Source of the DNA: Candidatus Poribacteria bacterium
GTDB lineage: Bacteria; Poribacteria; WGA-4E; PCPOR2b
Direction of reading: 5' to 3'
DNA length: 64,000 nucleotides
Assembly: GCA_022822785.1 (NCBI GenBank)
Contig: JAJEAL010000053.1
Location: 124,001 to 188,000 of the forward strand
Position 1 is the stretch's first letter. Every line of letters begins with the position of its first letter. Position numbers and translations under genes: made by a program. Under the pieces are notes generated by a model. The model was not told where the DNA came from. It made no database searches and saw only the letters and a program-made list of their open reading frames with translations. Below, one piece after another: positions 54,940 to 58,654 of the stretch.

Positions 54940-56004
54940 ATGATTGTCAGTGCCGAACAGATCACACCACAATGGTTGACGAACCGGTTCCAACAGAACG
55001 GGCATCTGTCGCAACATACTGTAACTGACGTACAGATTGGTGAGACATTTGAATCAACCGCTGCCTTTTTTACACGGTTGAAAGCAACCTATTCCACTCA
55101 ATCGGAGAATTGTCCTCATACCCATTTAATCTTCAAGAATTATCGGGACGGTTGGTTTGGGGGTGGCATTGCGGAATCAGTCTTCTTTAACGAAATTGCG
55201 GCTCAAATGCCGGCCCCACCGGTTTTCCGTTGCTATGACTTCGACTATGACCGTGATGTCCGTCGGTGCTATTTTATCTTTGAAGATGCCTCTGTGACAC
55301 ACACTGAAATCCCTCCCAAGGAGGACGGAGGATTTACCGTTGTTCTCTACAAGCAGATTATTGATGAACTGTTGAAGTTCCATACGCAATGGTGGGAGCA
55401 CTCGCGGATTTCGCAGGACGATTTCCTGCGAGGACGAGGAGGGCCGCTCCGCATGGCGGATGCCGCAACACCCGAAATTATACAAACTTATTGCGAACAC
55501 TGGCGAGAAACGCTGCTTCCTCAATTTGCGGACAAAGCCCAAGCCGAATTATCACAAGAGATATTTGATTTTGTGGTTCATGCCATCAATAGTTGGGAGC
55601 GGTTGTATGCGGAGCGCATCAAAGATAATAAAGCGTTGACACTGCTACACGGTGACCTGCATCATTGGAATCTCTTTTACCCTAAAAACCCGAAAACAGA
55701 TGGGCTTTATTTTGGCGATTGGGAAACCTATAAACGGGGGATGGGACCGTATGATCTCTGTTACTTGGTTGGGGGCGATTCCTCGCCACAACGACATGAG
55801 ATTGAGAAAGATCTGTTGCTGTACTATTACGATGGCCTTGTCAATGGGGGAGTTTTAGGGTATAGCTGGGAAGACTGTATCTATGACTACCGACTCTCGG
55901 TGATTGCTACCCTCTTTCCTCCGATTGGTTGGCAGAGCGTGTTCCGATTCAAGCTCCGACACGCTCATTTTCAGGATTGGAACTGTCAGGAATTACTTGA
56001 GTAA
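54940..56004 (+). CDS. APH/EcKinase-fold phosphotransferase
   Basis: 354 residues. The aminoglycoside-phosphotransferase-like fold is shown by LLHGDLHHWNLF (catalytic loop with Asp and Asn), followed by the metal-binding FGDWETYKRGMGPYDLCYL. N-terminal HLIFKNYRDGWFGG is the expected phosphate-loop and Lys region. Related proteins phosphorylate choline, ecdysteroids or antibiotics; here the substrate is unknown. It lies just upstream of the pterin cluster and could be in the same transcript. Confidence 0.85.
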   Translation: MIVSAEQITPQWLTNRFQQNGHLSQHTVTDVQIGETFESTAAFFTRLKATYSTQSENCPHTHLIFKNYRDGWFGGGIAESVFFNEIAAQMPAPPVFRCYDFDYDRDVRRCYFIFEDASVTHTEIPPKEDGGFTVVLYKQIIDELLKFHTQWWEHSRISQDDFLRGRGGPLRMADAATPEIIQTYCEHWRETLLPQFADKAQAELSQEIFDFVVHAINSWERLYAERIKDNKALTLLHGDLHHWNLFYPKNPKTDGLYFGDWETYKRGMGPYDLCYLVGGDSSPQRHEIEKDLLLYYYDGLVNGGVLGYSWEDCIYDYRLSVIATLFPPIGWQSVFRFKLRHAHFQDWNCQELLE

Positions 56005-56105
56005 TCTCTTTCCGCTGGTGCGCTCAGGGACAGGTAGTATGAGGTGCCGGTGGATTTTTGGCAAACCTCACTACAACTAAAATTCGTTTTATTCTGGAGT
56101 CATAT

Positions 56106-56384
56106 ATGCCCAAATTTGTTTCTGCTCATATCATTGCCTGCATGACCCGACAGGATGTCGAAAGACTCGTCAAGCGATTTATTGACGAGGAGAGCAACGG
56201 AGTCAAAAGCTTGAAAGTGCAGTGTGACACAGTCCTCGGTCGAATGGTCTGTGAATGGGAGGCGCCGGATCGAGATACACTTGTGGAATGGCTCAAAATG
56301 CGTCATGTGCATTTTCGCGGAGGTGGGGAATGGGTGATGCGTGTGCAGCTGGAAACAGTAGATAACAAAGTTGCTAGACTTTAA
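56106..56384 (+). CDS. Small conserved protein, DUF4242-like
   Basis: 92 residues from the ATG at 56106 with GGAG upstream; a frame to 56058 lacks a site. The compact sequence MPKFVSAHIIACMTRQDVER, with an internal VLGRMVCEWEAPDRDTL and C-terminal His residues (RHVHFRGG), resembles small ferredoxin-like proteins of the DUF4242/nickel-binding type. That assignment is tentative. It lies 86 nt before the tandem PTPS gene. Confidence 0.6.
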   Translation: MPKFVSAHIIACMTRQDVERLVKRFIDEESNGVKSLKVQCDTVLGRMVCEWEAPDRDTLVEWLKMRHVHFRGGGEWVMRVQLETVDNKVARL

Positions 56385-56470: not shown

Positions 56471-57304
56471 GTGCATTACCTTACGCGCCAAATTGCTTTT
56501 GAAGCCTCACACTACTATCGCATTCCTGAACTCAGCGATATGGAAAACTATGCCCTATTCGGACAGACTGCAAATCCAAATAGTCATGGTCATAACTATA
56601 TCTTGGAAGCGACAGTTAAAGGGAAACTTAACCCTGAACATGGGATGGTTATCAATATCACAGATCTGGACGAGGTTCTCAAGCAAGAAATTGTCGCTTA
56701 CTATGATCACAAGCATATCAATATACAACATCCCACCTTTGCGAACAACCCACACCTGCAGCCGACAAGCGAGAATTTAGCGATTCAGATTTGGTCTGCG
56801 ATTGAATCTCATCTGAAAGGGACAATCCTACATCGAATCAGGTTGTATGAGGATTCAACTCTATTTGCTGACTATTATGGAGAGAGGCAGATGGTCTATC
56901 TCACAAAGATTTATGAATTCAGTGCATCGCATCGATTGCATAGTCCACAACTCAGCGATGCGGAAAACCAAGAAATCTTTGGCAAGTGTAACAATTTCTA
57001 CGGTCACGGGCATAATTATGTCCTTGAAGTGACAATACAAGGTGAGGTGGACCCAAAAACCGGAATGGTCGTTGATTTACGCTGTCTTGATGAAACGATT
57101 CAGGAGCAGGTCTACGCACGATTTGATCATAAATATCTTAACTTAGACACACCAGAGTTTGAGAACCTCAATCCAACCTCCGAGAACTTTGTAAAAGTGC
57201 TCTGGGAGACGATTGAACCGAATCTTAAGCCTATTCGGTTACATCGGCTTCGATTAAGAGAAACACCTAAAAATCATTTTGATTACTATGGGGACGAGAT
57301 TTAG
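56471..57304 (+). CDS. Tandem 6-pyruvoyltetrahydropterin synthase (QueD-like) protein
   Basis: 277 residues from the GTG at 56471, with AAGGA upstream and a start (MHYLTRQIAFEASH) aligned with ordinary PTPS; a GTG at 56438 is less likely. Two PTPS domains are fused. Each has zinc His residues: His14, His39 and His41 in the first; His154, His179 and His181 in the second. Each also has an Asp-His pair (YYDHKH; RFDHKY) and a pterin-binding Glu (TSEN). The catalytic Cys173 is present only in the second (FGKCNNFYGHGHNY); the first has Thr33 there (FGQTANPNSHGHNY). folE starts 3 nt downstream, indicating pterin synthesis. Confidence 0.92.
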   Translation: MHYLTRQIAFEASHYYRIPELSDMENYALFGQTANPNSHGHNYILEATVKGKLNPEHGMVINITDLDEVLKQEIVAYYDHKHINIQHPTFANNPHLQPTSENLAIQIWSAIESHLKGTILHRIRLYEDSTLFADYYGERQMVYLTKIYEFSASHRLHSPQLSDAENQEIFGKCNNFYGHGHNYVLEVTIQGEVDPKTGMVVDLRCLDETIQEQVYARFDHKYLNLDTPEFENLNPTSENFVKVLWETIEPNLKPIRLHRLRLRETPKNHFDYYGDEI

Positions 57305-57307
57305 TTG

Positions 57308-57901
57308 ATGAAAATTTACCACGCCGAATCAATTGACAACGGAACAACTACCGCTGATCCAAAACTTGAATGTATCTATACTCAAATATTGGAAACTATT
57401 GGCGAAGATCTAGCAAGAGCAGGCCTCTTGAGAACACCTCAACGTGCAGCGAAAGCACTTCAGTTTTTGATACAAGGATACCATCAAAATGTTGAGGAAG
57501 TATTAAACGGTGCAATTTTCGACGAAGAATACGACGAAATGGTCATTGTCAAAGAGATTGAGTTTTATAGTCTCTGTGAACACCATCTTTTGCCATTCTT
57601 TGGTAAGTGCCATGTTGGATATATCCCCCGCAAAAAAATTATTGGGCTTAGTAAAATTCCGCGAATTGTGGATATGTTTGCTCGCCGTCTCCAAGTGCAA
57701 GAGAGATTGACGAGACAGATTGCGGAGGCTCTACAAGAAGCGCTGAATCCGTCTGGGGTTGCTGTTGTTATAGAGGCACAGCATATGTGCATGATGGTTC
57801 GTGGTGTACAGAAGCAGCACTCGCAAACGATGACCAATGTCATGCTTGGTGAGTTTCGAGATAAAAGTTCAACGCGGGCAGAATTTATGAGGTGTATATA
57901 G
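57308..57901 (+). CDS. folE: GTP cyclohydrolase I
   Basis: 197 residues from the ATG at 57308; a TTG codon just before it is not needed. FolE converts GTP to 7,8-dihydroneopterin triphosphate. Zinc ligands Cys90 and His93 ([10 protein letters not shown]) and a later Cys (HMCMMVRGV) are present, with the catalytic His in QKQHSQTMT. It is cotranscribed with the tandem PTPS gene before it and a short-chain reductase after it. Confidence 0.96.
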
Positions 57902-57940: not shown

Positions 57941-58654
57941 ATGCTGAAGGATAAGGTTGCAGTTATAACAGGAGCGTCACGGGGTATTGGTCGAGCAACC
58001 GCTTTGGCGTTTGCAAGGGCAGGTGCAAAGGTTGTCCTTGCATCACGCACACAGAGCGACCTCGAAACAGTTGCCAATCTCATACGCGTAGATGGCGGAG
58101 AAGCCCTAGTTGTCCCAACAGATGTAACACAGGCGGACGCCGTAAAAATCCTAGTCGATCGAACGCTGGAAACCTATGGACAAATTGACGTTCTTGTGAA
58201 CAACGCAGGGACCGGTGCCTTTGAAACAGTCGCGGATTCGGATCCGGAGGTATGGACTCAAGTGATTGCATCCAACCTCAAAAGCACTTATCTGTGCTCG
58301 AAATATGTGCTACCTCCCATGCTGGCACGTCAATCCGGCCAAATTATCAATGTGCTCTCAATTGCCGCGAAGGTTACATTTAAGGCGTCAAGCGCATATT
58401 GTGCAGCTAAGGCAGGCGCACTGGCGTTTACGAAGGTTTTGGCGGAGGAGGTCAGGAGTGATAACATCCGTGTTACTGCAGTTTCTCCCGGATCGGTTGA
58501 TACACCATTCTGGGCTAACATTGAGGGACACCCTGACCTAAATTTGATGTTGAAGCCAGAACATGTTGCGGATACCATTCTCTTCGTTGTGGCGCAGCCG
58601 ACTGGCATGGTCACTGACGAAATCGTCGTCACACCGCCCCTTGGCATTCTATAA
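57941..58654 (+). CDS. SDR-family reductase in the pterin cluster (sepiapterin reductase candidate)
   Basis: 237 residues. Classical SDR motifs are TGASRGIG, NNAG, and the catalytic Ser (VLSIAA), Tyr and Lys (YCAAK). The C-terminal end IVVTPPLGIL lacks the usual DGG signature. It begins 39 nt after folE behind a GGGGGCGGAG site. FolE, PTPS and a sepiapterin-type SDR are the three steps to tetrahydrobiopterin, so this is the main hypothesis. A generic 3-oxoacyl reductase role is the alternative. Confidence 0.85.
   Translation: MLKDKVAVITGASRGIGRATALAFARAGAKVVLASRTQSDLETVANLIRVDGGEALVVPTDVTQADAVKILVDRTLETYGQIDVLVNNAGTGAFETVADSDPEVWTQVIASNLKSTYLCSKYVLPPMLARQSGQIINVLSIAAKVTFKASSAYCAAKAGALAFTKVLAEEVRSDNIRVTAVSPGSVDTPFWANIEGHPDLNLMLKPEHVADTILFVVAQPTGMVTDEIVVTPPLGIL

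Follow-up and report, generated by a model that had tools for sequence, protein, structure and literature searches.

How does an enzyme work when its chain holds two copies of its catalytic domain and only one of them has the catalytic cysteine? The question is raised by a gene of Candidatus Poribacteria, a sponge-associated type of bacterium, which lies in the window, the whole stretch of 64,000 nucleotides of DNA that we analyzed. The genome that carries it measures 5.6 Mb, and each of its close relatives bears the name Candidatus Poribacteria. The gene (56471..57304, + strand) begins with a GTG start codon, has the sequence AAGGA about 9 nt upstream of that codon and encodes a fused, or bimodular, 6-pyruvoyltetrahydropterin synthase (PTPS) of 277 aa plus stop.

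Two PTPS domains in one chain

The Pfam PTPS family, PF01242, matched the 277-aa open reading frame twice (E 1.1e-64), in agreement with the two PTPS domains per chain of a preliminary description of this locus. Scored separately, both halves exceeded the PF01242 cutoff, D1 (residues 1 to 139; 56471..56887, + strand) with 98 bits and D2 (residues 140 to 277; 56888..57301, + strand) with 122 bits. The two domains are 44% identical to each other and 38% (D1) and 46% (D2) identical to rat PTPS, the last two values being approximate; E. coli QueD was our other yardstick. The NCBIfam QueD model, TIGR03367, gave 129 bits over two stretches against a cutoff of 89, a score inflated by the summing of two domains. 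All family matches of the fused protein were to PTPS families; none was to the QueF family, and the urate oxidase family did not appear among its Pfam and NCBIfam hits.

When we aligned D1 with D2, both halves were found to have the three zinc-binding His residues (His14, His39 and His41 in D1; His154, His179 and His181 in D2), an Asp-His pair (Asp79-His80, 56705..56710, + strand; Asp219-His220, 57125..57130, + strand) and the pterin-anchoring Glu (Glu127 and Glu264). The zinc ligands and the pair had been reported correctly in the preliminary description, as had the match between Cys173, the catalytic Cys of D2 (56987..56989, + strand), and Thr33 of D1 (56567..56569, + strand), which share an alignment position, that of Cys42, the catalytic residue in rat PTPS. 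The alignment would place Thr33 in the D1 pocket at this Cys position. D2 reads CNNFYGHGH here and carries the PTPS-II motif, CxxxxxHGH.

AlphaFold2 models were obtained for the window protein (pLDDT 93, pTM 0.88) and for a relative that keeps the Asp-His pair in D2 only (pLDDT 94.8, pTM 0.90). Both models contain two complete T-folds, a tight turn linking the last strand of D1 directly to the first strand of D2, and the chain is predicted to be a side-by-side tandem T-fold. One PTPS half matched rat PTPS (1gtq) with a TM score of 0.96.

Catalytic residues across the fused relatives

In protein searches, almost every Poribacteria genome examined proved to have the fused gene. A second phylum gave matches with an E value of 1e-20 or better in 139 of its 291 genomes, most of them covering both halves. 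A check of the phylum around genome G096, run without a positive control, found no fused PTPS. Conservation was scored on 170 distinct fused proteins from Poribacteria and the second phylum.

Cys was present at the catalytic position in 170 of 170 D2 domains versus 4 of 170 D1 domains (L110, L114, L116 and L130), which bears out the asymmetry that had been proposed for the fusion. The remaining D1 domains had Ala (61), Trp (55), Thr (8) or another residue, Leu and Tyr among them, or a gap (42) at this position. Thr was limited to the window protein and a few relatives, and within the genus the residue was either Thr or Ala. As judged from the alignment, the conserved trait of D1 is the loss of Cys, not the gain of Thr. 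A sporadic mutation at Thr33, the reading that a common D1 Cys and a unique Thr would have favored, is ruled out by the 166 of 170 D1 domains that lack Cys, and Thr33 as a substitute catalyst is ruled out by the variability of the residue. The four Cys-bearing D1 domains suggest that the ancestor of the fused proteins had Cys in D1. One of these proteins, L114 (genome G305), has Cys and the Asp-His pair in both halves, its D2 being cut off by a contig end, and is possibly near the ancestral state.

All three zinc His residues were kept in every D2 and in 152 of 170 D1 domains. Almost every D1 domain also had the pterin-anchoring Glu, and the CxxxxxHGH motif was found in 169 D2 and 4 D1 domains. 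In a domain tree, the D1 domains all fell into one clade (support 99) and the D2 domains into another (support 93), apart from the single-domain PTPS and QueD proteins. Since all D1 and all D2 domains form single clades, these sequences are most simply explained by one ancient duplication and fusion. Transfer may have played a part in their spread over the two phyla.

The Asp-His pair was intact only in D1 in 52 of the 170 proteins, only in D2 in 92 and in both halves in 26, the window protein among them; none lacked it in both. Those PTPS-II and QueD proteins of the set that have a single domain kept both Cys and the pair. In the D1-only set, Asp88 and His89 were present in D1 in all 52 proteins, although that domain had lost Cys and Arg24 and, in two proteins, zinc ligands as well. 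The corresponding D2 position mostly read DY, with DF, GF, HY, DG and RN as further variants. Genome G046 carries a second, shorter fused PTPS of 250 aa (L095:8050-8799), in which none of the three zinc His residues is left in D1, although D1 has kept FDHK, and in which D2 has kept the zinc ligands and Cys and reads RN in place of Asp-His. In the D2-only set, D1 commonly had Trp at the Cys position, and zinc His residues had also been lost in a subset.

We followed the pair on a trait tree of 108 representatives, built without alignment columns 42, 88 and 89. Under parsimony, the loss of the pair took two changes for D1 and five to six for D2. The D2 losses that it placed (four to five) were confined to branches with an intact pair in D1, and such branches make up 22 to 25% of the tree length. 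If losses were scattered by branch length, this placement would have a p of ~0.001 to 0.002, in what is a rough test with few events; the number of independent losses is small, parsimony also gives a regain of the pair, and a test on independent pairs had too few pairs for power.

How the active site may be built

Characterized PTPS-II enzymes are homohexamers (dimers of trimers) of T-fold subunits, and Nar, in 1994, is said to have traced His89 of PTPS to the opposite ring. The triad to which the Asp-His pair belongs is called intersubunit in the title of Burgisser 1995, as cited in PMC7546909 and PMC2229834.

Going by the residue pattern, we consider it fairly likely that the fused protein is a bimodular PTPS in which only the D2 pockets work, with the Asp-His pair coming from D1 in one of the two lineages and from a further D2 domain in the second. 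Tandem duplication and fusion, once and in the distant past, would have given rise to the bimodular 6-pyruvoyltetrahydropterin synthase. The D2 pockets, each with three zinc His residues, Cys173 and Glu264, would alone catalyze the Cys-dependent conversion of dihydroneopterin triphosphate, and D1, its pocket having lost Cys, would have been retained as an assembly partner. The Asp-His part of the triad would be supplied by the neighboring domain, which would be D1 in the Poribacteria-type lineage and a second D2 in the other. Once fused, the halves could have packed either as D1 with D2 or as D2 with D2, and the pair no longer in use would then have been dropped in each lineage. We infer a composite site, the contact that it uses, the substrate and an oligomer that might be a ring of four domains (two chains).

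Because many relatives have lost the His of the Asp-His pair from D2 while keeping it in D1, D1 seems to donate catalytic residues and to be more than a scaffold, a point absent from the preliminary description. That either half can donate the pair, depending on the lineage, suggests two assembly registers. The borrowing is read from the relatives only, the window protein having the pair in both halves, and D1 keeps its zinc ligands more often than a dead pocket needs. A bolder form of the proposal, which we offer tentatively and with the odds somewhat against it, holds that the family split the triad in two mutually exclusive ways: either D1 acts as donor for the Cys and zinc site of D2, or D2 pairs with D2 and D1 is inert. 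The family would then be a natural record of two assembly registers after one fusion, and the Poribacteria enzyme would feed both tetrahydropterin and queuosine synthesis.

D1 might instead be structural or regulatory only, with D2 a self-sufficient PTPS in which the loss of His89 is tolerated or locally compensated, for example by a His at position 91. Most D2 domains do have His91, and the D1 domains of the second lineage have lost Cys, the Asp-His pair and often zinc His residues while their D2 stays canonical. However, D2 has lost the pair solely where D1 keeps it, every protein whose D2 lost the pair has it in D1, and His91 is missing from some D2 domains that lack His89 (L087, L095, L131 and L171), which makes a purely structural D1 unlikely. 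We give a still smaller chance to D1 as a working zinc enzyme that catalyzes a different pterin reaction without Cys, for instance cleavage of the dihydroneopterin side chain. The retained zinc ligands and anchoring Glu would suit such an enzyme, but the residue at the Cys position varies among Ala, Trp, Thr, Leu, Tyr and others, and most D1 domains of the Poribacteria-type lineage lack Arg24, which neighbors the zinc His. ExxHGH, the diagnostic motif of PTPS-III (PMC5041015), was found in neither half of the window protein and in none of the 170 D1 domains, and 36 of 40 relatives, the window genome included, have folB; on these grounds a PTPS-III-like activity in D1 was rejected. The preliminary description had offered D1 as a structural or regulatory subunit or as the seat of a different reaction, and what survives of this is that D1 is unlikely to perform the Cys-dependent reaction, whereas side-chain cleavage finds no support. 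The chance of an assembly artefact or a pseudogene half is negligible: in one relative (G005, L086:8920-9757) the PTPS halves lie in different, overlapping frames, through a frameshift or an assembly error, but the fusion is intact in dozens of independent assemblies, single-contig genomes included, and D1 is on average 75% identical among Poribacteria.

Bimodular QueF and urate oxidase are precedents for the bimodular PTPS that we favor. The bimodular QueF of V. cholerae and E. coli is a tandem T-fold of ~280 aa that arose from a duplication; its C-terminal module retains the catalytic Cys, its N-terminal module has lost it, and active-site elements are split between the modules (PMC5372742). 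The fused PTPS resembles it in architecture, being a tandem T-fold of ~280 aa with Cys in the C-terminal half, almost never in the N-terminal one, and probably with divided active-site elements. QueF is another enzyme with another reaction and not a zinc PTPS, and in the fused PTPS partner residues have been lost from opposite halves in different lineages. In urate oxidase, each chain carries a tandem pair of T-folds that form a single sheet, and the dimers stack head to head (PMC5138847). Our two models matched it weakly over most of the chain, with TM scores below 0.5 (mostly 0.34 to 0.47), but it is a cofactor-free oxidase with no detectable sequence kinship to the fused PTPS. The fused protein has in common with PTPS-II (rat 1gtq and 1b66, human 3i2b) the fold, the zinc His triad, the CxxxxxHGH motif, the Asp-His pair and the anchoring Glu. 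It differs in having two domains per chain, one of them without Cys, and a single-domain homohexamer is not to be assumed for it.

Operon and pathway

The next gene after the fused PTPS is folE, for GTP cyclohydrolase I (57308..57901, + strand; TIGR00063 above the cutoff), followed by a gene for an SDR oxidoreductase (57941..58654, + strand; adh_short), a candidate for a sepiapterin-reductase-like step. Sepiapterin reductase (2bd0) was the third best PDB match of the SDR, among other SDRs, and the assignment is by similarity only. The order fused PTPS-folE-SDR was found at most Poribacteria loci examined, and in the second phylum the fused gene adjoins folE and/or an SDR at many loci. This operon fits tetrahydropterin synthesis: the fused enzyme probably yields 6-pyruvoyltetrahydropterin, and a tetrahydropterin would be produced together with folE and the SDR. 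Among candidate consumers of the pterin, no Phe/Tyr/Trp hydroxylase (PF00351) was found in 40 Poribacteria, and the fatty-acid hydroxylase PF04116 was dropped as absent from the window genus. Genes between the SDR and an aldolase in other Poribacteria were CorC/HlyC-like by eye and were set aside as unrelated. Just upstream of the fused gene is a small open reading frame (56058-56384), 55 to 96% conserved and found in the same place in most Poribacteria, that had no Pfam or NCBIfam match. A gene for an ecdysteroid-kinase-like/APH phosphotransferase lies farther upstream (54940-56004) and is missing there in some relatives.

We found no canonical QueD in 16 Poribacteria (G000 to G015) with QueC-, QueE- and QueF-like genes, which leaves a gap in the queuosine pathway. 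QueD (PTPS-I; 4ntk and 3qn0) belongs to the same superfamily and has the same substrate, and since no canonical QueD accompanies the QueC, QueF and QueE-like genes, the fused enzyme may also act as QueD. That it is mainly or also the QueD of this pathway, which would be compatible with a composite site, seems to us possible but rather doubtful. The fused protein is the sole PF01242 protein found in 11 of the 16 genomes, and in one of them (G011) the QueC and QueE-like matches lie ~250 bases apart. However, QueD is a single-domain protein with the motif CxxxHGH, and D2 has the PTPS-II motif; the QueE-like matches were under the curated cutoff, and the SDR of the operon is not needed for queuosine synthesis.

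The window genome also has a short PTPS-family paralogue (G000:C91:19152-19475; L105:8132-8518), ~4 kb from folB, that lacks the catalytic Cys, has HNH for HGH and scores 35 with the QueD model (cutoff 89). Similar short matches were found in 5 of the 16 Poribacteria searched, the window genome and four relatives.

The fused PTPS is a fused, asymmetric form of a known enzyme family, with two known T-fold parallels, QueF and urate oxidase; no description of it was found in the open-access literature searched. It offers a testable case of how gene fusion turns a homo-oligomeric enzyme with sites between subunits into an asymmetric one, and the family shows two opposite outcomes of this. The parallel with bimodular QueF, in the same superfamily, implies that T-fold enzymes may repeat this route. 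For annotation, fused proteins of ~280 aa are not to be read as two working PTPS sites, and for the Poribacteria, the missing QueD becomes a concrete question.
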